Assembly: GCA_025455885.1 (NCBI GenBank)
Contig: JALOLR010000019.1
Span: 1 to 52,817 of the forward strand
DNA length: 52,817 bases
Reading direction: 5' to 3'
Source of the DNA: Acidimicrobiales bacterium
Lineage (GTDB): Bacteria > Actinomycetota > Acidimicrobiia > Acidimicrobiales > Acidimicrobilacustridaceae
Made by a program: the position numbers and the translations under genes. Of this stretch, positions 32,856 to 44,396 are shown in pieces. Numbering within the stretch: the stretch's first letter is position 1; each line of letters opens with the position of its first letter. The notes beneath the pieces are model-generated. The model did not search any database. It was not told the origin of the DNA and saw nothing but the letters and a program-made list of their open reading frames with translations.

Positions 32856-32884
32856 TTGCCAGTCTCGAACAGATGTTCGATACT
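32856..32884 (+). promoter_or_regulatory. SOS promoter of imuA'-imuB with perfect LexA box
   Basis: TTGCCA (32856-32861) and GATACT (32879-32884) are separated by 17 bp. The perfect palindrome TCGAACAGATGTTCGA (32865-32880) lies in the spacer and touches the -10. It matches the Gram-positive/actinobacterial LexA consensus. LexA bound there would block polymerase, so the operon should be DNA-damage induced. Confidence 0.85.
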
Positions 32885-32890
32885 GGGGAG

Positions 32891-33760
32891 GTGGCCGTCC
32901 CCTCCGAGCTCCGCCGCCTCGCCGGGCACGTCGCCCCCGTGGTGCTGGCCCGCGACCAGGGCCTCGACGTGCTCGACCCGCTGCGCCCCCTGCTGCCCGA
33001 CGGTCGCCTCACCCGCGGCTCGGTGGTCGGGGTGGCCGGCGGACCGGGGGCCCTCACCCTGGCGTTGGCCCTGGCCGCAGGCCCCTCGACGCACGGCTCG
33101 TGGACGGTGGTGATGGGCCTGCCCGAGCTGGGACTGGCCGCGGCCGGCGAGCTGGGAGTCCGCCTCGACCGGCTCGCACTGGTGGCCCTGCCCCCGCACG
33201 ACCCGGCGGTGTGGGCGCCGACGTTGGCCGCCGTGGTGGGGTCGGTCGACGTGGTGCTGGTCGACGGGCGCCTGACGTTGCGGGCCGCCGAGACCCGCCG
33301 CCTGGCCGCTCGCGCCCGTGAGCGGGGCACCGTGGTGGTGCCCGTGGTCCCCGGCACCGGGGCCCCCGAGGAGGCGTCGGCCCCCGGACGCCGTCGGCGG
33401 GGGACGGCCCTCGGCGACTGGGCCACCGACGTGGTGCTCGAGGTCGACGCCGGGCCGTGGGAGGGCGCCGGGGCGGGGGACGGGCACCTCTCGGGGCGCC
33501 GGGTGGAGGTGGCCGCCGGGGGCCGGGGACGGGCGGCCCGGGTCCGGCGGGCCGCGTTGTGGCTCCCCGGTCCCGACGGGACGGTGAGCGCCGCCCCGCT
33601 CCCGGCCGGGCACCGCGACGCGACCCGGTCCGACGGGGCGTCGTCGCGCCCCGGAGGCGGCCCGGCTCCTGGCGACGGGGGCTCGGCGGTGGTGGCCGCC
33701 GGGGTGGCGCGCACCGAACGGTTCCTGCGGTCGGTGCCGACCGGGCGGCAGGTGTCGTGA
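32891..33760 (+). CDS. imuA': ImuA'-like RecA-fold accessory protein of the mutasome
   Basis: This 289-residue protein has a RecA-like core but no P-loop lysine (GVAGGPGALTLALAL replaces G-x4-G-K-T), followed by strands VDVVLVDGRL and GTVVVPVVPG and a basic, Gly/Arg-rich tail. Position before imuB and the LexA box identify it as ImuA'. In mycobacteria ImuA', ImuB and DnaE2 together carry out damage-induced mutagenic synthesis. An ATG at 32873 is in frame but lies inside the LexA box and -10. GTG 32891 is six bases after the -10, so I use it. Confidence 0.82.
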   Translation: MAVPSELRRLAGHVAPVVLARDQGLDVLDPLRPLLPDGRLTRGSVVGVAGGPGALTLALALAAGPSTHGSWTVVMGLPELGLAAAGELGVRLDRLALVALPPHDPAVWAPTLAAVVGSVDVVLVDGRLTLRAAETRRLAARARERGTVVVPVVPGTGAPEEASAPGRRRRGTALGDWATDVVLEVDAGPWEGAGAGDGHLSGRRVEVAAGGRGRAARVRRAALWLPGPDGTVSAAPLPAGHRDATRSDGASSRPGGGPAPGDGGSAVVAAGVARTERFLRSVPTGRQVS

Positions 33761-35331
33761 CCGCAGTACGCACCCTGGTGGTCGTGTGCCCCCACTGGTC
33801 GGTGGTGGCCGCCGGGGCGGCACCGGACCGTCCCGCCGCGGTGGTGCGGGCCAATCGGGTGGTGGCCGCCACCCCCGCCGCTCGTGCCGAGGGGGTCAGC
33901 GCCGGTCAGCGCCGTCGCGAGGCCCAGGGGCGGTGTCCCGCGCTGGAGGTCCACGACCACGACGAGGCCCGTGACGGGCGGGCCTTCGCCGGCGTGGCCG
34001 CCGCCCTCGAGCGCTACACCCCCCGCATCGAGCTCTCGGTGCCGGGCACGGCCGCGTTCCCCACCAGAGGCCCGTCGCGGTACTTCGGGGGCGACACGGC
34101 GTTGGCCGAGGCGGTGGTGGCGACCGTCGACGAGGTCATGGGGGAGTGGGGCTGGGCGGGCACCGCCGGGGTGGGGGTGGCCGACGGGCCGTTCCCCGCC
34201 GCGTTGGCAGCCCGGGGTGCCGCCCCGGGCCGGGAGGTCGTCGCCCCCGGGGGGTCACCGGCGTTCCTCGCGCCCCTGGCGGTGGCCGCCCTCGACCGAC
34301 CCGACCTCGTCGACGTGTTGGTGCGCCTCGGGTTGCGGACCCTGGGGGCGTTCGCGGCCCTCGACGCGGCCGACGTCGTGGCCCGCTTCGGCGCCGAGGG
34401 GCGGGCCGCCCACCGTCTGGCCAGGGGCCTCGACGAGCGCCCGCCGGCCACGTCGCCCCCGCCTCGGCACCTCGAGGTCGCCGCCGACCTCGATCCCCCC
34501 GCCGAGCGGGTCGACGTCGCGGCCTTCGTGGCCAAGGGGCTGGCCGACGAGCTCCACGCCCGTCTCGGGGCCTACGGGCTGTCGTGCACCCGGGTGGTGG
34601 TCACCGCCGAGACCGAGCAGGGGGAGGTGCACGAGCGGGTGTGGCGCCACGAGGGTGCCCTGGGGGCGGGGGCGGTGGCCGACCGGGTGCGCTGGCAGCT
34701 CGACGGGTGGCTCAACGGGCCCGCCGCCCGGCGGCCGACCGGTGGGGTGGTACGCCTCGTCATCGCCCCCGACGAGGTCGTGCCGGCCGCCGGCCGCCAG
34801 CTCGGCTTCTGGGGCGGCGAGAGCGCCGCCACCGAACGGGCCCACCGGGGCCTCGCCCGGGTGCAGGGCCTCCTCGGCCCCGACGCCGTGACCGTGCCCG
34901 AGCGTCGGGGCGGACGGGGGCCGGGCGAGCAGGTGGTGCGGGTGCCGGCCGTCGCCGAGGAGTCGGGTGAGCCCCGCCGGTCGACGGCGGAGCCGCGGGG
35001 CGGGGAGGCGCCGTGGCCCGGACGTGTCCCGGCCCCGTCGCCGGCCGCCGTGCCCGCCGAGCCGGTGCCCGTGGAGGTGCGTGCCGCCGACGGGACCGTG
35101 GTGGCGGTCGACGGCCGTGGGACGGTGGGCGCCGCCCCGGCCACGCTCGTGGTGGCCGGACGGAGTGTCGGGGTCGAAGCCTGGGCGGGCCCGTGGCCGG
35201 CCGACGAGCGCTGGTGGGATCCCCACGCCCGCCGTCGCCGGGCCCGTCTCCAGCTCCGTACGGCCGACGGCCGTGCGGTGCTCGTCTTCGTGGAGGGTGG
35301 CCGGTGGTGGCTCGAAGCGGTCTACGACTGA
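33757..35331 (+). CDS. imuB: ImuB, catalytically inactive Y-family polymerase homologue
   Basis: This 524-residue protein has a Y-family polymerase layout (palm/fingers about 1-170, thumb about 170-240, little finger about 250-350), but the catalytic acidic motifs are lost: VVVCPHWSVVAAG replaces the D-x-D start motif and ELSVPGTAAFP replaces S-x-D-E. QLGFWG at 348-353 is a clear beta-clamp-binding motif, like QLPLWG in mycobacterial ImuB. The C-terminal RWWDPHARRRRARLQL region is typical. GTG start overlaps the imuA' stop (GTGA). It should bridge the clamp and DnaE2. Confidence 0.93.
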   Translation: MTAVRTLVVVCPHWSVVAAGAAPDRPAAVVRANRVVAATPAARAEGVSAGQRRREAQGRCPALEVHDHDEARDGRAFAGVAAALERYTPRIELSVPGTAAFPTRGPSRYFGGDTALAEAVVATVDEVMGEWGWAGTAGVGVADGPFPAALAARGAAPGREVVAPGGSPAFLAPLAVAALDRPDLVDVLVRLGLRTLGAFAALDAADVVARFGAEGRAAHRLARGLDERPPATSPPPRHLEVAADLDPPAERVDVAAFVAKGLADELHARLGAYGLSCTRVVVTAETEQGEVHERVWRHEGALGAGAVADRVRWQLDGWLNGPAARRPTGGVVRLVIAPDEVVPAAGRQLGFWGGESAATERAHRGLARVQGLLGPDAVTVPERRGGRGPGEQVVRVPAVAEESGEPRRSTAEPRGGEAPWPGRVPAPSPAAVPAEPVPVEVRAADGTVVAVDGRGTVGAAPATLVVAGRSVGVEAWAGPWPADERWWDPHARRRRARLQLRTADGRAVLVFVEGGRWWLEAVYD

Positions 35332-35406
35332 GCGCCGTCGGGTTCGGCCGTCGTGCTCCGCCGAGCCGGGGAAGGGGTTCAGGAACGGGTCGCAACCGTC
35401 GATGAG

Positions 35407-35431
35407 GAGAGGGCCGTCCCGACGGCCTCTC
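35407..35431 (+). terminator. imperfect hairpin after imuB
   Basis: GAGAGGGCCGTC (35407-35418) faces GACGGCCTCTC (35421-35431) with one bulged G and a very short loop. It lies about 75 bp after the imuB stop and just before the next gene. No T tract. Confidence 0.35.
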
Positions 35432-35465
35432 GTCCCTCGATCCGCACCTCTGCATCGGAGACCCC

Positions 35466-35984
35466 ATGAGCGAACACGACCTCGTCGACCGGGCCCAGGC
35501 CGTCGTCGGTGACGCCGACACCATCGTGGCCGCGGCCTGGTTCCAACCCCGGGGCACCTCCGGATCGATCGTGGGGGGATCCACGCTCGTGGACGGCCAC
35601 GGGTGGGCCGGCGCGGCGGTCGACATGGCCGCCGGCCTGGCCGCCTACGGCGCCGAGAAGCACCACGACGACCGGTTGGCCTCCGCCGACGGCGAGACCC
35701 GCGCCGTGCCCTTCTACAGCATGGTCGCCGTGTCCCCGAAGCGCATCTACTGCTGGAAGGTGGCCACCCACCACGGGCACCGCGAGCCGGGCGACCCGAT
35801 CTTCGCCTACGACCGTGACCGCATCGCCGTCACCGTGCACTCCCGCATCGGGGTGCGCACCTTCTCCGTCGAGGACCTCGACACCGGGGTGCGCTGGGAG
35901 TTCGAGTCGCCCCGGGTCGAGGGGCACCTCAAGTTCGTGCTCGACGCCCTCCACGCCGACCAGCCCGACGCGGACCCGTCCTGA
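35466..35984 (+). CDS. hypothetical protein
   Basis: This 172-residue protein is soluble-looking, with no signal peptide or helix of membrane type. A Gly-rich N-terminal part (GSIVGGSTLVDGHG, AAGLAAYGAEKHHDDR) precedes a beta-rich part (MVAVSPKRIYCWKV, RDRIAVTVHSRIGVRTFSV) that could be a PH-like domain. That is only an impression. ATG 35466 has GGAG upstream. It follows the imuAB operon but has its own spacing and probably its own transcript. Confidence 0.65.
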   Translation: MSEHDLVDRAQAVVGDADTIVAAAWFQPRGTSGSIVGGSTLVDGHGWAGAAVDMAAGLAAYGAEKHHDDRLASADGETRAVPFYSMVAVSPKRIYCWKVATHHGHREPGDPIFAYDRDRIAVTVHSRIGVRTFSVEDLDTGVRWEFESPRVEGHLKFVLDALHADQPDADPS

Positions 35985-36085
35985 CCGGCGCCGACCGTGG
36001 TGCGCGCACCACGGGGGGATAGGTTGACGGCGGGCCCGGGGACGCCATCCGGTCGCCTCCCCCCACACGACCCCAGGAGCGGGGC

Positions 36086-39000
36086 ATGAGGTCAGGACCC
36101 ACTCGACGGCGCGCCGGTTGGGCTGTGGTGGCCATGGTCGTGGTCGTGGCGTTCGTCGTGGCCGCCCTGGCGGGCGGACCGGCGCCCACCTCCGACGCGT
36201 CGGGCCCGACCGCAGATGCTCCGGACGCGTCGACCCCCCCCACCTCCGCGGATCCGTCCGAGCCGCAGGAGCCGCCGCCGACCGTGCCGTCCGACGGGGG
36301 GCAGTCGGGCCAGGCCGATCCGGTGGAGCCGACCGACCCGGTCCCGGTGGAGCCCGGGGTGGAGGCGGCCATCGCCACCGACGGGTCGGCCCCGGTGCTG
36401 GTGCGCCTGGACGTCCCCGACGGGCTCGTCCCCGAGGAGCGCGCGGCCGCCGTCGCCGCCGCCGCCGAGGGCGTGCTCGCCGTGTTGTCGACGGAGGTGG
36501 CGGCCACGGCCAAGCCCACCGGCACCACCCCCGTGCTGGCGCTCACCGCGGACGCCGACGCCCTGGCCGCCCTGCGGGTGGCCGATGCGGTCACCGCCGT
36601 GTCCGAGGACGGGATCAACACGATCAGCTCCACCAACTCGACGGCGTCGATCCAGGCTCCACAGGCCTGGACGCAGGGCGCCGACGGCACCGGCCAGGTC
36701 ATCGCGGTGCTCGACACCGGTGTGGCCCGCGACCACCCGTACCTGACGCGTGACGGGGTGTCCGACGTGCTGGCCGAGGCGTGCTTCTCCTCCACCGGCT
36801 CGTCCGGCGGCGCGGCGTGGTCGTCGTACTGCCCCGGCGGCGGGACCGCCGGGGTGTTCGGCACCGGGGCGGCGGCACCGTGTCCGGTCCCGGCCACCGA
36901 CTGCGCCCACGGCACCCACGTGGCCGGCATCGCCGCCGGCGGGACGGGAGCGGCCTCGTTGGGGTCGACCGTCGGTGCCTCGGGGGTGGCGCCCGACGCC
37001 GAGCTGCTCGGGGTGCAGGTGTTCTCGAAGGGCCTGAACTCGACGGTGTGCGGTGCGAGCGCGCCGTGCGCCATCGCCTTCGACTCCGACGTCATCCGCG
37101 GTCTGGAGTGGGTGTACGCCCAGCGGGCCGCCTACCCCGGCCTGGCGGCGGTGAACCTGAGCCTCGGGGGCGGCAAGTACGCGGGGACCTGCGACGCCAG
37201 CTACGGCGACGTCAAGCAGGCCATCGACGACCTGCGCAACGCGGGCATCGCCACGGTCGTGGCGTCGGGGAACAACGGCTGGGACGGGTTCGTCAGCGGC
37301 CCGGCCTGCGTCACCACCGCCGTCGCGGTCGGCGCCGTCGACGACGCCACGCTGGCCGTGGCCGGCTACTCGAACCAGAGCGCCCTCGTCGACCTGCTCG
37401 GGCCGGGCAGCACCGTGCGGTCGTCGTTCCCCCCGAACGTGATGGGCAACCTCACCGGCACGTCGATGGCCACCCCCGCGGTGGCCGGGGCGTTCGCGGC
37501 GCTGAGGGAGGTCCGGCCCACGGCCACGGTCAGCCAGCTCGAGGCGTCGCTCGAGGCGACCGGGATCACGATCAGCCTCTCCGGCGTGGGTTCGTGGCCC
37601 TACCTGCAGCTCAACGCGCCCGTGACCGCGGCGGTGAGCGGGCGGCCCACGGTCCCGCTGGGGGTGTCCGGTGTGCCGGGCCCCGGTCAGGCGCAGGTCT
37701 CGTGGTCGCCCCCGGCCAGCCCGGGCACGACGCCGGTCACCTCCTACCGCGTGACCGCAAGCCCCGGGGGGGCGACGTGCACGACCGCCGGTCTCGGCTG
37801 CACGGTCACCGGTCTCACCAACGGCCAGGCCTACCGGTTCGCGGTGGCGGCGGAGAACGCCTCGGGTCCCGGTCCGGCGGCGGGCACGCTGCCGTTGGTG
37901 CCCTTCACCTCCCCGACGGCACCGCAGGCCGTGACGGCCTTCGGCGGTGACGGCTCGGGCGTGGTGGCGTGGTCGCCGCCGTCGTTCGACGGGGGGCGCC
38001 CGATCACCGGGTACACGGCGACGGCCTCGCCGGGCGGGGCGACGTGCTCGACGACCGGCGCGCTCGGGTGCGTGGTGCCCGGGCTGACCAACGGCGTCGG
38101 CTACACGATCTCGGTGCGGGCCACGAACCTGGCCGGTCCCGGCCCGTCGGCGGGTGCGGCCGCGGCGATCACCGCTGCGCCCGGTGCGCTCGTGCCGCTC
38201 ACCCCCGCCCGTCTCATGGACACCCGGCCCGGGCCGCAGTTCACCACCATCGACGGCCAGGCCCGCGGTGGCGGGCCGCTCGGCGCAGGCGCGGCCGGGG
38301 AGGTCTCGTTGCCGGTGCTCGGCCGAGGCGGTGTGCCGTCGTCGGATGTGGGGGCGGTGGCGTTGAACGTCACGGTCACCGCTCCGACGGCGTCGAGCTG
38401 GCTGACGGTGTACCCGTCGGGGGCGCCGATACCGGGCGCGTCGAGCCTCAACTACGGACCCGGCCAGACCGTGCCGAACATGGTGATGGCCGGGGTGGGC
38501 GCCGATGGGCAGGTGGTGCTGCGCAACGAGTTCGGCTCGGCGCACGTGATCGTGGACGTGATGGGCTGGCTGCCCGATGCCGCCGGCTTCTCGTCGCTCG
38601 TCACCCCCGCACGGCTCATGGACACCCGCGCCGGAGCGCAGTTCCCGACCGTCGACGGCCAGGCCCAGGGCACCGGTGCCCTCGGGGCGGCGAGCACCCG
38701 GTCATTGCTGGTCACCGGCCGCGCCGGAGTGCCGGCCTCCGGGGTGGGCGCAGTGGCGTTGAACGTGACGGTCACGGCGCCGACGGCGTCGAGCTGGCTG
38801 CGGGTGTACCCCTCGGGTTCGCCGTTGCCCGACGCCTCCAGCATCAACTACGTCCCCGGCCAGACCGTGCCCAACATGGTCATCGCCCGGGTCGGTCCCG
38901 ACGGCCGGATCGCGCTGCGCAACGAGTTCGGCTCCGCCCACGTCATCGTCGACATCGTGGGGTGGTTCCCGCTCACCGGGTACGCACCGTTGTCCCCGGC

Positions 39001-39358
39001 CCGGCTGCTCGACACGCGGCCCGGCTTCACCACCATCGACGGGCAGTTCGTGGGGACCGGCGCCCTCGGTTCCGGCGGGACCCTCGCCCTCACCGTGGTG
39101 GGACGGGGTGGGGTGCCCCCGGTCGGAGCGCGGTCGGTCGTGCTGAACGTGACGGTCACGTCGCCGACGGCGTCGAGCTGGCTGCGGGTGTACCCGACGG
39201 GGACGCCGCTGCCCACCGCGTCCAACCTGAACTACTCGCCGGGCCAGACCGTCGCCAACGCTGTGGTGGCCCGGGTCGGTGTCGACGGCAAGGTGGCGCT
39301 GCGCAACGAGCTCGGCTCGGCCCACGTGATCGTCGACGTCGTCGGCTGGATCCCGTAG
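36086..39358 (+). CDS. secreted subtilisin-like (S8) protease with FN3 and triple C-terminal module
   Basis: This is a 1090-residue protein. A basic N-terminus and hydrophobic segment (about 11-30) act as signal or anchor, followed by a Pro/Asp/Ser-rich linker. The S8 triad is complete: D210 in VLDTGV, H275 in HGTHVAGIAAG, S460 in GTSMATPAVAG. Four extra Cys pairs fit an extracellular enzyme. Two fibronectin-III domains (about 523-700) follow, then three copies of a 122-126-residue module (705-1090). An inhibitor-like segment (about 110-190) precedes the catalytic domain. ATG 36086 has AGGAG upstream; TAGGTT at 36020-36025 may be the -10. Confidence 0.9.
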   Translation: MRSGPTRRRAGWAVVAMVVVVAFVVAALAGGPAPTSDASGPTADAPDASTPPTSADPSEPQEPPPTVPSDGGQSGQADPVEPTDPVPVEPGVEAAIATDGSAPVLVRLDVPDGLVPEERAAAVAAAAEGVLAVLSTEVAATAKPTGTTPVLALTADADALAALRVADAVTAVSEDGINTISSTNSTASIQAPQAWTQGADGTGQVIAVLDTGVARDHPYLTRDGVSDVLAEACFSSTGSSGGAAWSSYCPGGGTAGVFGTGAAAPCPVPATDCAHGTHVAGIAAGGTGAASLGSTVGASGVAPDAELLGVQVFSKGLNSTVCGASAPCAIAFDSDVIRGLEWVYAQRAAYPGLAAVNLSLGGGKYAGTCDASYGDVKQAIDDLRNAGIATVVASGNNGWDGFVSGPACVTTAVAVGAVDDATLAVAGYSNQSALVDLLGPGSTVRSSFPPNVMGNLTGTSMATPAVAGAFAALREVRPTATVSQLEASLEATGITISLSGVGSWPYLQLNAPVTAAVSGRPTVPLGVSGVPGPGQAQVSWSPPASPGTTPVTSYRVTASPGGATCTTAGLGCTVTGLTNGQAYRFAVAAENASGPGPAAGTLPLVPFTSPTAPQAVTAFGGDGSGVVAWSPPSFDGGRPITGYTATASPGGATCSTTGALGCVVPGLTNGVGYTISVRATNLAGPGPSAGAAAAITAAPGALVPLTPARLMDTRPGPQFTTIDGQARGGGPLGAGAAGEVSLPVLGRGGVPSSDVGAVALNVTVTAPTASSWLTVYPSGAPIPGASSLNYGPGQTVPNMVMAGVGADGQVVLRNEFGSAHVIVDVMGWLPDAAGFSSLVTPARLMDTRAGAQFPTVDGQAQGTGALGAASTRSLLVTGRAGVPASGVGAVALNVTVTAPTASSWLRVYPSGSPLPDASSINYVPGQTVPNMVIARVGPDGRIALRNEFGSAHVIVDIVGWFPLTGYAPLSPARLLDTRPGFTTIDGQFVGTGALGSGGTLALTVVGRGGVPPVGARSVVLNVTVTSPTASSWLRVYPTGTPLPTASNLNYSPGQTVANAVVARVGVDGKVALRNELGSAHVIVDVVGWIP
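38198..39355 (+). repeat. three tandem copies of a secreted beta-rich module in the protease gene
   Basis: Copies lie at about 38198-38575, 38600-38971 and 38990-39355. Each runs (L/V)(T/S)PARL(M/L)DTRxG, then a Gly-rich strand, GAVALNVTVTAPTASSWL-type core, (V)YPSGxPxPxAS, PGQTVPNxV, and ends LRNEFGSAHVIVDVxGW. The copies are similar at DNA level too (the core TCGAGCTGGCTG recurs), which shows recent or conversion-maintained duplication. Confidence 0.85.
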
Positions 39359-39368
39359 TCGGCTCACC

Positions 39369-39384
39369 ACCGCCCATCGGCGGT
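39369..39384. terminator. short hairpin between convergent genes
   Basis: ACCGCC (39369-39374) and GGCGGT (39379-39384) flank a 4-nt loop in the 45-bp gap between the protease gene and the convergent Tat-protein gene. Short and without a T tract. Confidence 0.3.
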
Positions 39385-39403
39385 ACGCCGGTACGCGCTC
39401 GGC

Positions 39404-40744
39404 TCAGCGGTAGTAGGCGATGGCGTCGATGATGAGGTCGGTGGTGTAGTTGGCAAGGGCGGCGATCGTGGCGTTTGGACCGAGGGCGACGGTGGTGGTG
39501 GTGGCCACGACGGCTCCGGCCGTGGTCCAGTTGAGGGTGGAGGCGTTGGGGGTGGGGACGCCGTTGGCGTAGAGGGTGAGGAAGCCGGGGATGGTGGGGG
39601 AGCCGCCGCCGGTGTTGGCGACGGTGGTGGTGACGATGGCGGCGGTGGCGTCGGTGGGGATGCCCGAAGAGGCGGTGGTGAGGGCGAGGCCGGTGCGGGG
39701 GGTGCCGGCGGCGAGTCTGGTCTGGGGGGCGACGAAGGGGGGTTGCCCGGGGCGGGAGTCGTAGACGCGCACGGGGGAGGGGAGCACGGTGAGGGCCCCG
39801 GCCGTTGATGGTCCGGCAAGACGTCGCCATGTGCCGGGCGTCCCGTCGGCGACGCACAGCCAGAGGGTGTAGTCCCCGTCGAACACCACCTCACCGCCGG
39901 ATCTCGTGAAGGTCGTCGAGGGTGGCGCCGGGATCGCCCCGCTGGTTCCGATCTGGTTGTCGAGCAGCAGCGCGGCCCGGTCGGCGACGAGGACGGCGCC
40001 GTACCCCCTCGCGAAGGAGACGAGGCCGTCCTCTCCGGCGGCGACGACGCCCACGGAGTCCGAGGCTTCGAACGCGCTGGCCCATACGCCGTACTTCCCG
40101 CCCTCCACCCGTAGACCGCCGCTGGTCTCACCGCGTGCTTCCACCCGAAGGGCCGTGCCGTTCTCCTGGGTCTCGGTCGAAAGGATGTCCACCGCCACGT
40201 CGGCTCCGGTGCTCTCCGCGACGACGGCTGTCCCTCCGGCGGAGTTGGTCGCCTGGACGGCGGCGCCGGTGCCGGTGCTGGTGGCGGTCACAGCGGGGGT
40301 CGAGTTGGAGGTGTCGAAGGAGCCGGTGGCGGCGGCGGCGGGGGAGGCGGTGGCCACTGTCGCGGCGGCCCCGCCGAGCACGGCCCCGGCGGCGACGGCG
40401 CCGGCCCGGGTGAGCATCCGGCGTCGATCGACCCGGCCGTCGTCGGCGTCGTCGGCTCTGGTCGCCTCGGCGTCGTCGCAGTTGGGGTCGGTCTCGGCGT
40501 CATCAAGTGACCTGGTGTCGGAGCGCGGGGTCGGTGCGGCGGTGGCGCCTTTGGCAACCGGGTCGGCGGCTCCTACGGGTTCGCGCTGACCCAGCCCTGC
40601 GAGGAGGTCGGCGAGCGCTGAGTCGTGTGGCGCCGATCGAGTTTCCAGCGCGGCGGTGAGGCGGGCCACGGTGATCTCGAGCTCGGCCACCCGCCGGGCC
40701 AGGTCGGCGGGGGTGTCACCCTCGGTGGGCGTGCGATCGTCCAT
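39404..40744 (-). CDS. Tat-exported beta-rich protein with long cytoplasmic N-terminal extension
   Basis: This is a 446-residue protein. Residues 1-106 are hydrophilic, with a predicted coiled coil (DLARRVAELEITVARLTAAL, 14-33). Then RRRMLTRAG (107-115) plus a long Ala/Gly hydrophobic stretch ending near 138 look like a buried twin-arginine signal. After that comes a Ser/Thr/Gly-rich, strand-repeating region and a C-terminal domain (about 322-446; RVYDSRPGQ, FLTLYANGVPTPNAS, LIIDAIAYY) resembling one copy of the module in the neighbouring protease. Start ATG 40744 with GGAGG upstream and a TACGCT -10 at 40801-40796. Function unknown. Confidence 0.75.
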   Translation of the reverse strand: MDDRTPTEGDTPADLARRVAELEITVARLTAALETRSAPHDSALADLLAGLGQREPVGAADPVAKGATAAPTPRSDTRSLDDAETDPNCDDAEATRADDADDGRVDRRRMLTRAGAVAAGAVLGGAAATVATASPAAAATGSFDTSNSTPAVTATSTGTGAAVQATNSAGGTAVVAESTGADVAVDILSTETQENGTALRVEARGETSGGLRVEGGKYGVWASAFEASDSVGVVAAGEDGLVSFARGYGAVLVADRAALLLDNQIGTSGAIPAPPSTTFTRSGGEVVFDGDYTLWLCVADGTPGTWRRLAGPSTAGALTVLPSPVRVYDSRPGQPPFVAPQTRLAAGTPRTGLALTTASSGIPTDATAAIVTTTVANTGGGSPTIPGFLTLYANGVPTPNASTLNWTTAGAVVATTTTVALGPNATIAALANYTTDLIIDAIAYYR

Positions 40745-40881
40745 GGCGCGTGCCTCCGCCGGTGGTCGGATGGCGGGGGCGTCCGCCGCCTCGCCAGCGT
40801 AGGTTGTGGGCCCCTTCGGGTGTCGGGCGCTTCCGGTGTCGAGGGTCGAATCGCCCGGGTATCCACCCTCCGAGATCGCGG

Positions 40882-40910
40882 TTGCGGTACGAACAGGTGT
40901 TCGGTACGGT
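40882..40910 (+). promoter_or_regulatory. SOS promoter of dnaE2 with LexA box
   Basis: TTGCGG (40882-40887) and TACGGT (40905-40910) are 17 bp apart. The 14-bp palindrome CGAACAGGTGTTCG (40890-40903) fills the spacer and matches the actinobacterial LexA box. ATG 40917 lies six bases after the -10. The layout equals that of the imuA' promoter. Confidence 0.85.
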
Positions 40911-40916
40911 GCGGGC

Positions 40917-43900
40917 ATGGGGTGGAGGAACCCGCCGGTGCCGTGGGGCGAGCTGGAGCGACGGTTGGGCGACGGGCCGCGTCCCGCCGGTGGTCGCGCC
41001 GAGCCGTTCTTCCCCGGTGACGGCAGCGACAGCCCGGCGTGGTCGCGGAAGCGCCCGGCCTACGAGCCGCCGGCCGAGCCCGCCCGTCGGCGGGGGGCGG
41101 TGCCCTACGCCGAGCTGCACTGCCACAGCCACTTCAGCTTCCTCGACGGGGCGTCGTCGCCCGAGGCGCTGGCCGAGGAGGCGGTCCGCCTCGGTCTGGA
41201 GGCGTTGGCCGTCACCGACCACGACGGCTTCTACGGGGTGGTGCGCATGGCCGAGGCCGCCCGCGAGCTCGGCCTGCCCACCGTCTTCGGCAGCGAGCTC
41301 ACCCTCGGTCGACGGCGGGTGCCGGTGGGGGAGCCCGACCCGGGGGCGGGCACCGACGAGAGCCACCTGGTGGTGCTGGCCCGCGACCCCCGCGGCTACG
41401 CCCTGCTGGCCCAGGCCATCAGCGACGGCCAGCTCCGCGGCGAGAAGGGCGGCCCGCGCCTCACCCTGGCCGACCTCTGCGGCATCGGCGGCACCGGCGC
41501 GCCGACCGCCGACCGGGGTCACTGGCTGGTGCTCACCGGGTGCCGCAAGGGCGCGGTGCCTGCCGCCCTCGAGGCTGCCGGGCCCAGCGCGGCGGGGCGC
41601 CGCCTCGGCGAGCTGGTCGACGCCTTCGGCCGCGACCACGTGGCCGTCGAGCTGTGGGACCACGGCCACCCCCTCGACTCGGTGCGCAACGACGGTCTGG
41701 CGGCCCTGGCCGTCGCCGCCGGGGTCGACCTCGTGGCCACCACCAACGCCCACTACGCCACCCCGGCCCAACGCCCGTTGGCCACCGCCGTCGCCGCGGT
41801 GCGGGCGCGACGCAGCCTCGACGAGATCGACGGTTGGCTGCCCGCCGCCGCCGGCGCCCACCTGCGCTCCGGGGCCGAGCAGGCCCGCCGGTTCGCCCGC
41901 TATCCGGGAGTGGTCGAACGGGCCGGTGAGCTGGGGCTCGACTGCGCCTTCGACCTGCACCTCGTCGCCCCGGCGTTGCCGCCCTACCCGTGCCCCGACG
42001 GGCTCGACGAGATGGGCTTCCTGCGCCGGCTGGCCGAAGCCGGGGCCGAGCACCGCTACGGGCCCCGCTCCGCCGACCGCGTCCCCGGGGCCTGGGCCCA
42101 GATCGACCACGAGCTCGCCGTCATCGACCAGCTCGGCTTCCCCGGCTACTTCCTGATCGTCTGGGACCTCGTCGAGTTCTGCCGCCGCCGCAACATCTAC
42201 TGCCAGGGCCGCGGGTCGGCGGCCAACTCGGCGGTGTGCTTCGCGCTCGGCATCACCAAGGCCGACGCCGTCCAGCTCGGCCTGCTGTTCGAGCGGTTCC
42301 TGTCCCCCGAACGCGACGGCCCACCCGACATCGACGTCGACATCGAGTCCGGCCGGCGCGAGGAGGTCATCCAGTACACCTACGAGCGCTACGGGCGCCG
42401 CTACGCCGCCCAGGTCGCCAACGTCATCACCTACCGGGGTCGCTCGGCGGTGCGTGACATGGCCAAGGCCCTCGGCTACGCCACCGGCCAGCAGGACGCG
42501 TGGGCCAAGCAGGTCGACCGGTGGAGCGGGGTGTCGGCCAGCGCCCGCGCCGCCGACTGCGACATCCCCGCCGCGGTGCTCGACCTCGCCGCCCAGATCG
42601 AGCACGCCCCCCGCCACCTCGGCATCCACTCCGGCGGCATGGTCCTGTGCGATCGCCCGGTGGTCGAGGTGTGCCCCGTCGAGTGGGCCCGCCACGAGGG
42701 CCGCACCGTGCTCCAGTGGGACAAGGACGACTGCGCCGCCGCCGGCCTCGTGAAGTTCGACATGCTCGGCCTGGGCATGCTCACCGCCCTGCACCGTACG
42801 GTCGACTTCGTGGCCGGCGCCCACGGCCTCGAGCTCGACCTGGCCACCATCCCCCAGGACGACGCCGTCTACGACATGTTGTGCGCCGCCGACTCCATCG
42901 GGGTGTTCCAGGTCGAGAGCCGGGCCCAGATGGCCACCCTGCCCCGGCTGCGGCCCCGCACCTTCTACGACCTGGTCGTCGAGGTCGCCCTCATCCGCCC
43001 CGGACCCATCCAGGGCGGCTCGGTGCACCCCTACATCCGGCGCCGCAACGGCCTCGAGCCCGTCACCTACCTGCACCCGCTGCTCGAGAACTCCCTGGCC
43101 AAGACCCTCGGCGTGCCCCTGTTCCAGGAACAGCTCATGCAGATGGCCATCGACGTCGCCGGTTTCACCCCCGGCGACGCCGACCAGCTCCGCCAGGCCA
43201 TGGGCTCCAAGCGCAGCCGCGAACGCATGGAGCGCCTGCGCGAGAAGCTCTACGGCGGCATGGCCGAGCGGGGCATCACCGGCGAGGTGGCCGACCGCAT
43301 CTACGACAAGCTCGCCGCCTTCGCCAACTTCGGGTTCCCCGAGAGCCACTCGGTGTCGTTCGCCTACCTGGTGTACGCCAGCTCGTATGCGAAGCGGTAC
43401 TTCCCGGCCGCGTTCTGCGCCGGGCTGCTCGACGCCCAGCCCATGGGCTTCTACGCCCCCCACACCCTCGTGGCCGACGCCCGCCGCCACGGCGTGCAGG
43501 TGCGCACCCCCGACCTCAACGCGTCGCTGGCCGGGGCCTCGCTGGAGTGGGCCGAGGGGGTCGCCGTGGCCTGCCGGTCCGTCGGGGCGCCCGAGGAGAC
43601 CGGGCCCGACCCCCACCCCCCGGCCGACGACGATCCCACCTTGTTGCCCAGGGGCGGGGTCGACGTGGCCCAGCCGGCGCTGCGCCTCGGGCTGGCGTCG
43701 GTGCGCACCGTCGGCGACGACCTGGCCGCCGAGATCGTGGCCGAGCGCCACACCCACGGCCCCTACGCTTCCATGGAGGACCTGGCCCGGCGGGTGAAGG
43801 TGGACCGCAGCACCCTCGAGGCCCTGGCCACCGCCGGGGCGTTCGCCGGGCTCGACGACGGCACCGGCCGGGCTCTCGACCGGCGTCGGGCCCTGTGGGC

Positions 43901-44396
43901 CGCCGGTGCGGTGGCCCAGGGCGGCGCCGATCGGCTGGCCGGGGTGGTCACCGGGGTCGAGGCCCCTCCACTCCCCGGGCTCTCCGACCGCGAGATCGCC
44001 GGGGCCGACCTGTGGGCCACCGGGGTGGCTCCCGACGGCCACCCCACCCGGTTCATCCGCGGCGAGCTCGACCGGCTGGGGGTGGTCACCTCCACCGGGC
44101 TGGCCGCCGTCGAAGCCGGGAGCAGGGTGCTCGTCGGCGGGGTCGTCACCCATCGCCAACGCCCGGCCACCGCCGGGGGCACCACCTTCCTCAACCTCGA
44201 GGACGAGACCGGTCTGGTGAACGTGGTGGTGTCGATGGGGTGCTGGGCCCGCTACCGCCGGGTGGCCCGCACCGCCCCGGCGCTGCTGGTGCGGGGCCGC
44301 CTGGAGCGGGCCGAGGGCGTCACCAACGTCGTGGCCGACAAGCTCGAACCGCTGCCGCTCGCCGCCGGCCTGCCCGCCTCGCGGGACTTCCGCTGA
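40917..44396 (+). CDS. dnaE2: error-prone DNA polymerase III alpha-type subunit DnaE2
   Basis: This is a 1159-residue C-family polymerase. The N-terminal PHP domain starts ELHCHSHFSFLDG (H68). The palm carries PDIDVDIES with D471 and D473, and QGRGSAANSAVCFALG precedes it. Later helix-hairpin-helix (SMEDLARRVKVDRSTLEALATAGAF) and OB-fold parts (TFLNLEDETGLVNVVV) complete the DnaE2 layout. It performs damage-induced mutagenic synthesis with ImuA'/ImuB. ATG 40917 is placed by the promoter; about 55 Pro/Arg-rich residues precede the PHP domain. It lies 5.6 kb downstream of imuB rather than next to it. Confidence 0.95.
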   Translation: MGWRNPPVPWGELERRLGDGPRPAGGRAEPFFPGDGSDSPAWSRKRPAYEPPAEPARRRGAVPYAELHCHSHFSFLDGASSPEALAEEAVRLGLEALAVTDHDGFYGVVRMAEAARELGLPTVFGSELTLGRRRVPVGEPDPGAGTDESHLVVLARDPRGYALLAQAISDGQLRGEKGGPRLTLADLCGIGGTGAPTADRGHWLVLTGCRKGAVPAALEAAGPSAAGRRLGELVDAFGRDHVAVELWDHGHPLDSVRNDGLAALAVAAGVDLVATTNAHYATPAQRPLATAVAAVRARRSLDEIDGWLPAAAGAHLRSGAEQARRFARYPGVVERAGELGLDCAFDLHLVAPALPPYPCPDGLDEMGFLRRLAEAGAEHRYGPRSADRVPGAWAQIDHELAVIDQLGFPGYFLIVWDLVEFCRRRNIYCQGRGSAANSAVCFALGITKADAVQLGLLFERFLSPERDGPPDIDVDIESGRREEVIQYTYERYGRRYAAQVANVITYRGRSAVRDMAKALGYATGQQDAWAKQVDRWSGVSASARAADCDIPAAVLDLAAQIEHAPRHLGIHSGGMVLCDRPVVEVCPVEWARHEGRTVLQWDKDDCAAAGLVKFDMLGLGMLTALHRTVDFVAGAHGLELDLATIPQDDAVYDMLCAADSIGVFQVESRAQMATLPRLRPRTFYDLVVEVALIRPGPIQGGSVHPYIRRRNGLEPVTYLHPLLENSLAKTLGVPLFQEQLMQMAIDVAGFTPGDADQLRQAMGSKRSRERMERLREKLYGGMAERGITGEVADRIYDKLAAFANFGFPESHSVSFAYLVYASSYAKRYFPAAFCAGLLDAQPMGFYAPHTLVADARRHGVQVRTPDLNASLAGASLEWAEGVAVACRSVGAPEETGPDPHPPADDDPTLLPRGGVDVAQPALRLGLASVRTVGDDLAAEIVAERHTHGPYASMEDLARRVKVDRSTLEALATAGAFAGLDDGTGRALDRRRALWAAGAVAQGGADRLAGVVTGVEAPPLPGLSDREIAGADLWATGVAPDGHPTRFIRGELDRLGVVTSTGLAAVEAGSRVLVGGVVTHRQRPATAGGTTFLNLEDETGLVNVVVSMGCWARYRRVARTAPALLVRGRLERAEGVTNVVADKLEPLPLAAGLPASRDFR

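Follow-up and report, generated by a model that had tools for sequence, protein, structure and literature searches.

A predicted C1q/TNF-like module, carried in three copies by a subtilase and in one copy by a convergent twin-arginine protein, probably works in threes

Introduction

The collagen-like spore proteins BclA and F-BclA bear a trimeric C1q-like head. Three such jelly rolls have also been joined on one chain in the engineered single-chain C1q/TNF-like heads (5hkj/5hzf, 4dou, 4zch), which are recombinant fusions of human domains. Excerpts of the respective articles describe three tandem C1q domains on one natural chain in the pearl mussel protein HcC1qDC6 (PMC5519582), and a trimer made of a beta-helix plus a tip in the Bdellovibrio MAT fibre Bd2133 (8ok3/8ond), with one tip per chain (PMC10769870). 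Here we analyzed a stretch of 52,817 nucleotides (contig JALOLR010000019.1, assembly GCA_025455885.1, hereafter the window) from an Acidimicrobiales bacterium; it is contig C19 of a 3.29-Mb genome (G000) in 33 contigs. Two convergent genes in the window encode a subtilase with three C-terminal copies of a module and a twin-arginine (Tat) protein with one copy. We consider it likely that this module is a C1q/TNF-like jelly roll working in threes, as a cis fusion within the protease and as a homotrimer of the Tat protein.

The locus departs from each of the described systems. While the engineered trimers were built from human domains, the triple of the window is natural, bacterial and borne by an enzyme, and the two share 5-9% identity over aligned residues; the likeness lies in three jelly rolls, here predicted ones, on one chain. 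HcC1qDC6 likewise unites three C1q-type domains in one natural chain, but it is an animal protein with true C1q domains, and the word 'trimer' is absent from the main text of its article (PMC5519582). The trimeric beta-helix and tip of Bd2133, as given in the excerpts, resemble the layout proposed for the Tat protein, whereas the window protease has three modules per chain. Between BclA or F-BclA and the module no sequence relation was found, and the Tat protein of the window has no collagen-like run. A relative with a collagen-like region does exist (locus L194), but there the module comes before the collagen part. The enzyme part of the protease is like that of other subtilases (Peptidase_S8), from which it differs by the C-terminal triple module, found in no searched Pfam or NCBIfam model.

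Organization of the two genes

The features of the two genes are as follows (aa, amino acids).

36086..39358, + strand: S8 subtilase of 1090 aa, whose fn3 repeats precede three jelly-roll modules at the C-terminus (translation, Pfam)
36686..37561, + strand: Peptidase_S8 catalytic domain, aa 201-492, with LDTGV, HGTHV and GTSMATP (Pfam, motifs)
38189..38578, + strand: protease module 1 (profile, AlphaFold2)
38594..38968, + strand: protease module 2 (profile, AlphaFold2)
38981..39355, + strand: protease module 3 (profile, AlphaFold2)
38189..39355, + strand: predicted single-chain (cis) C1q/TNF-like trimer head, modules 1-3 (AlphaFold2, structure matches)
39404..40744, - strand: Tat protein with N-terminal heptad segment, twin-arginine signal, stalk-like repeats and one C-terminal module, 446 aa
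40646..40708, - strand: heptad (coiled-coil-like) segment ADLARRVAELEITVARLTAAL, N-terminal to the Tat motif (3/500 shuffles as good)
40328..40432, - strand: twin-arginine signal region, RRRMLTR at aa 107 (sequence)
39791..40327, - strand: stalk-like region, ending in the LWLCV..GTPGTWRRLAG segment common to relatives (alignment; low-confidence model)
39407..39790, - strand: Tat single module, from aa 319, the proposed homotrimeric tip (profile, fold)

The protease matched Peptidase_S8 (Pfam, E 1.5e-29), with LDTGV at aa 209, HGTHV at aa 275 and GTSMATP at aa 458, and fn3 over two stretches (Pfam, E 2.8e-18). Its modules start at aa 702, 837 and 966, each about 125 residues long; identity with module 1 is 73% for module 2 and 67% for module 3. 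The stop codons of the two genes are separated by 45 nucleotides. A first-pass annotation of this DNA had placed both genes correctly, and the order of motifs that it described in the protease modules and in the Tat module is indeed found.

Sequence evidence for a shared module

The four modules are homologous, as that annotation had proposed. A profile of the three protease modules scored the Tat protein at 24.8 bits (E 2.1e-5), whereas shuffled sequences reached no more than 16.2 bits in 22,000 trials (20,000 with the C-terminal 128 aa and 2,000 with the whole protein). With blastp, the Tat module matched all three protease modules (E 5.6e-9, 9.6e-8 and 2.9e-5) at 27-32% identity. In an alignment of 36 modules, R8, D11, R13, P50 and D123 (module 1 numbering) were invariant in singles and triples alike. 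The Tat query contained one extra residue before its start in several searches.

The module is uncatalogued by the curated models that were searched. In either protein it had no Pfam or NCBIfam match above cut-off, the nearest being a sub-threshold fimbrial model (E 0.017). When 88 aligned triples (the window and named genome contigs) were compared with Pfam, the matches were scattered over 100 unrelated families, none of which matched more than 9 of the triples (best E about 1e-6); none of the 25 of these 100 families that were listed was a C1q/TNF model at E≤0.5. PHROGs matched the S8 part and, weakly, the N-terminus of the protease, leaving the modules unmatched, and the module profile had no match to PDB chains at E≤1. 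By predicted fold the module resembles C1q, yet by sequence it is not a member of the C1q family. Searches of the open PubMed Central (PMC) literature gave nothing relevant for the motif strings of the module. The matches listed for C1q-like, tandem or single-chain trimers concerned the mussel protein, papers of the CTRP4 type and engineered C1q (PMC4774423); none was bacterial.

Predicted fold of the module

The region of three modules was predicted by AlphaFold2 with high confidence from the alignment of 88 triples (predicted local distance difference test, pLDDT, 96.5; predicted template modelling score 0.93). In VIA-align, the top five entries for this model, representing four molecules, were all C1q/TNF-like trimers on one chain (Z 12.7-14.9), with 289-320 residues aligned across the whole model. 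They were the single-chain C1q head (5hzf/5hkj; Z 14.9/14.8, 306/300 of 402 residues aligned), the single-chain APRIL-BAFF-BAFF (4zch; Z 13.3), the single-chain adiponectin (4dou; Z 12.8) and the Cbln1 C1q trimer on one 807-residue chain (5kca; Z 12.7, 310 aligned), so that the engineered heads spanned Z 12.8-14.9. Next came the Bd2133 tip, which matched one module (Z 9.4/9.3, 102 residues), and the remainder had Z≤7.7. Foldseek also gave the single-chain C1q head 5hkj as best PDB match (E 1.1e-6). The viral structure library yielded a phage protein with a C1q domain (A0A6J5LW36, 425 aa), at a TM-score of 0.40-0.42.

A model from nine Tat sequences alone, although weak, displayed the same order of eight module strands as protease module 1. 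Its best matches were again to the Bd2133 tip (Z 9.4/9.3, 106-108 residues), followed by BclA and F-BclA (Z 8.2 each); many C1q/TNF-like homotrimers stood lower (Z 6.6-7.9), mixed with carbohydrate-binding modules (CBMs) and other entries. The Bd2133 tip is thus the nearest single-domain structure for both models (Z 9.3-9.4, 102-108 residues), while by sequence there was no match to PDB chains. The comparison of folds that the first-pass annotation had suggested therefore predicts the same fold for the modules of both proteins, with the weakness of the Tat model in mind.

The modules might instead be three independent beta-sandwiches of carbohydrate-binding type, set in tandem to raise avidity. 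Single modules do match CBM-like sandwiches (Z about 6.5-7.2), but these values lie far below those for the single-chain trimers and also below Bd2133, and a tandem of this kind would be expected to vary in number, whereas no ORF (open reading frame) with four modules occurred among the matches listed (L087 having a possible degenerate fourth). We regard such an arrangement as improbable. PNGase F, polyomavirus VP1 and CBMs were rejected as relatives, with Z≤7.7 in the VIA-align lists.

Copy number and turnover of the module

Nearly every ORF had either three modules or one. The genome G042 belongs to the same order and consists of a single contig; with 150 of 222 first-look candidates scored there, the first pass gave at least 120 module matches in 48 ORFs (35 triple, 11 single and 2 double). 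After the fetched loci were rescanned there were 37 triples, 10 distinct singles and no ORF with four modules. Two identical tandem singles at L195 were counted once among the 10, and the remaining double is a fragment truncated where L234 begins, its ORF being counted whole in L235. One triple (L203) had a weak third copy (9 bits), and one of the L195 singles showed a second weak match at a looser cut-off. The complete listing for the window genome gave module numbers of 3, 3, 3, 3 and 1, with three each in the protease, a DUF1501 protein (RRRFLQ), a PD40 propeller protein and an RHS protein, and one in the Tat protein. The first-pass annotation had proposed two export routes (Sec-like and Tat). 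One of the two proteins does carry a twin-arginine motif, but the contrast does not track copy number, because the DUF1501 protein with RRRFLQ in the same genome carries three modules.

Other genomes were counted at E≤1e-15 with at most 44 candidates scored per genome. G076 (40/40 candidates scored) had six triples and two singles, and a draw of 100 genomes from the phylum, with the window genome among them, contained 10 carriers of the module. Of 351 loci obtained with a 389-aa query the best 80 were kept, a selection that favours triples; they included Rudaea, Streptomyces, Amycolatopsis and metagenome-assembled genomes (MAGs) labelled Chloroflexi, Dormibacteraeota and Proteobacteria.

The module tree had 104 tips, namely the modules of 31 three-module proteins and 11 single modules of Tat proteins. 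In 15 of the 31 proteins, including the window protease (support 0.93), the three copies grouped as a clade. For 39 of 93 modules the closest module in another protein occupied the same position, where chance would give 31. All 11 tested Tat single modules fell into one clade (support 0.995), separate from the modules of the triples. The tree suggests that the tandem copies were re-made or homogenised in many proteins while their number is still three. Among the arguments from sequence for a structural cause, this persistence of three copies through turnover is the strongest.

The same tree bears on whether the likeness of the two proteins arose by recent DNA exchange, such as gene conversion or inverted duplication, between convergent neighbours. 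The genes are adjacent and inverted, and the protease modules resemble one another closely (73% and 67%). However, the Tat module is merely 27-32% identical to them, and the separate clades of the Tat singles (0.995) and of the window protease modules (0.93) contradict such an exchange. This turnover within proteins, together with the module tree, makes recent exchange highly improbable, and gene conversion between the neighbours was rejected.

The Tat protein and stalk elements of single-module proteins

RRRMLTR in the Tat protein is followed by the hydrophobic stretch AGAVAAGAVLGGAAATVATA, and the same region was recognized in relatives by eye and pattern matching. By sequence, the Tat protein matched only four weak MelC chains in the PDB (E 0.22 or worse), at the signal region, where a sub-threshold NCBIfam MelC1 match (E 0.0071) was also located. 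A heptad segment N-terminal to the twin-arginine motif was detected with a 21-residue window in 20 of 22 testable Tat proteins, several of them near-duplicates (≤5/500 shuffles as good). The exceptions were L069, a narrow miss (6/500 shuffles), and L067, which had none; three further Tat proteins were too short or cut. Because the heptad segment is flanked by prolines, an earlier test over 28 residues overlooked many Tat proteins, that of the window among them. The position of this segment before the signal suggests that the chains may assemble before Tat export. The open PMC literature held nothing relevant on Tat-exported trimeric fibres with a coiled coil.

By crude rules, a stalk element was found in 7 of the 10 distinct G042 singles but in 2 of the 37 triples (Fisher p 6e-5). 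In L194 (462-2099), a single module is followed by about 54 collagen-like G-X-Y triplets (Pfam Collagen, 4.3e-27) and a C-terminal domain. An L195 single has a strong heptad run, L198 has glycine repeats, and in L196, L197, L201 and L202 the module is closely followed by an HxH motif. L201 has in addition a marginal match to a phage long-tail-fibre PHROG (1.1e-4). According to an excerpt of PMC6116203, HxH sites in pyocin and T4 fibres bind metal with three symmetry-related chains. Both triples that agreed with the rules (L204 and L235) did so by an HxH match.

Placement, partner domains and distribution of the module

Among 97 three-module ORFs, the modules were C-terminal in 76, N-terminal in 12, internal in 2 and unclassified in 7. 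In the 48 of 88 upstream parts that were scanned, Pfam matches included RCC1 repeats (6), fn3 (4), S8 (3) and DUF1501 (3), and two each of kumamolisin propeptide, reprolysin-like, C39, amidase_2, FG-GAP and CAP. Judged by these matches, the partners are extracellular types of enzyme and repeat, which a targeting head would be expected to have.

Association with so many kinds of domain (RCC1, S8, DUF1501, amidase, CAP, metallopeptidases) and the mostly C-terminal position (76/97) would also suit an envelope anchor of the kind that the first-pass annotation suggested, which fixes both proteins to one component of wall, capsule or membrane with no three-fold assembly. An anchor leaves the near-constant number of three or one and the matches to single-chain trimers unexplained, and the 12 N-terminal and 2 internal placements show that the module is not a C-terminal sorting signal. 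We therefore hold an anchor to be unlikely, if less so than the avidity tandem.

In the same genome as the window, L191 (C11:18314-19492) encodes an RHS-repeat protein with three internal modules followed by RHS-core-like sequence. Fifteen plasmid records matched, 10 of them from Streptomyces, with the annotations hypothetical, PKD, RHS, cutinase and LamG-like. A phage origin was rejected, as no phage record matched the Tat protein or the triple; no viral contig encoded a relative of the triple in a search that reached close relatives only.

Recurrence of the gene pair and neighboring genes

The pair lies between imuB-like and dnaE2-like genes, both named by similarity. We compared 45 dnaE2-like loci (the window and 44 others). 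A three-module protein with a convergent Tat gene was present in seven of them: the window, G018 (whose S8 part falls outside the contig), G020, G023, G030, G034 and G032, the last with two Tat copies. With a further pair at L074, on a contig without dnaE2, the pair occurs at seven other loci beside the window. In G032 (L056 / L100), the two Tat single-module genes stand in tandem facing the protease. The Tat gene adjoins dnaE2 at a contig end in G019, G024 and G033. In G001 (the window's genus), G004, G012 and G014 the S8 protease bears another repeat in triplicate and the Tat gene is missing. G010 has a short Tat single and no protease; in G036, which has no Tat gene, a fragment of the module precedes dnaE2 in the same orientation; and the other 29 loci, many of them cut by contig ends, had neither gene.

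Where the S8 domain was seen, a Tat neighbour accompanied 7 of 7 module-bearing proteases and 0 of 4 other-repeat ones. In the S8 tree, the other-repeat proteases of G001, G004 and G014 grouped together (99/98) with G000 beside them (83/91), so that G000 was not paired with its congener G001; G012 fell outside, in a poorly supported part. This suggests at least two switches between module and other repeat in the history of the protease, at the modest support of 83/91.

These observations are what one might expect if fibre and protease form a working unit, binding the same target or each other, the fibre for example displaying or recruiting the protease. The convergent pair recurs at the seven other loci, the Tat gene follows the module-bearing proteases, and the tree points to the switches mentioned, if only at 83/91. 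However, modules and Tat gene are contiguous and one replacement could add or remove both, so joint function is supported but not proven. Within the stretches fetched, some of them short, no protease of this kind accompanies the Tat paralogues elsewhere in the genomes (L057-L061, L063, L066-L072), and the two genes are also uncoupled in G010 and G036. A working unit is accordingly possible, and we hold it only tentatively.

The other-repeat proteases (L153:3320-5896, L155:7300-10185, L161:412-2928 and L163:377-2980) carry, by eye, three C-terminal copies of about 85 aa with the pattern GWALDPDT..HVYV..SR.DV..FPGYG..HGF...YAIN...LGCR. No Pfam model passed the cut-off for this repeat in L153 and L161, the two scanned. 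This triple repeat is possibly another cis-trimer.

The pair sits within an apparent SOS mutasome cassette (33457-44396, imuB-like and dnaE2-like) and recurs there in relatives. The window contains only two perfect CGAACNNNNGTTCG (LexA/SOS-like) boxes, at 32866-32879 and 40890-40903, the latter between the Tat gene and dnaE2 and nearest dnaE2. A GAACN4GTTC box was present near the corresponding place in 10 of 10 relative loci checked. SOS regulation of the pair is not claimed, as this box is nearest dnaE2 and the 3 kb upstream of the protease hold no perfect LexA-like box. Two contigs titled Bifidobacterium breve MAG (L074 and L106) carry the pair locus; the label looks wrong, because L106 coincides with the contig stretch of G020, which belongs to the family of the window.

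Evidence weighed and proposed mechanism

Several observations weigh against a C1q/TNF-like module working in threes. The Foldseek TM-score between the triple and the single-chain C1q head was only 0.40-0.41, and in Pfam neither protein matched a C1q/TNF model at E≤5. The Tat-only model had a mean pLDDT of 48.3 (about 46-75 in the module part), and its matches below Bd2133 and BclA are soft, because a VIA-align Z below 8 may mean a common arrangement only. No ligand site was identified. Concerning copy number, some two-module ORFs were found in G128, G144 and G150 (E≤1e-15), and of the several ORFs with two modules some stem from a contig cut, the E-value cut or a missed weak copy; L087 has a RIMDTR motif after its third module, possibly a degenerate fourth. 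The modules of one protein did not form a clade in 16 of the 31 proteins. The stalk patterns were fixed in a script, with cut-offs set by eye on the output, and were written after some sequences had been seen. Three of the 10 singles (L193, L199 and L200) failed these rules, and the 192-aa Tat protein of G010 has no stalk, with an N-terminus too short for the coil test.

If the module does work in threes, as we think likely, the three modules of the protease would pack together into a single-chain trimer of natural origin, giving a secreted enzyme its three-fold head. Three chains of the Tat protein, with their repeat stalk, would form a homotrimer ending in an equivalent head, and the coiled coil preceding the Tat signal may join the chains before export of the folded trimer. 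By analogy with many C1q- and TNF-like heads, the head would most likely bind a surface polymer or receptor. The protease would thereby be targeted and the fibre would adhere, perhaps to the same partner. A broader proposal, somewhat more doubtful than the working unit, is that bacteria repeatedly evolved single-chain C1q-like trimers, in which copies are re-made or homogenised from protein to protein but kept at three by the need for a three-fold working form, and that here a cis-trimer protease and a pre-assembled Tat homotrimeric fibre may meet on one target.

The module occurs dozens of times in some related genomes (at least 120 matches in G042), on enzymes, RHS proteins and fibre-like proteins. 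A C1q/TNF-like head, if confirmed, would give its carriers a role in targeting or adhesion and would explain the nearly fixed copy number. Bacteria would then possess, in the triple, a natural equivalent of the trimers that engineers have built by hand on one chain.

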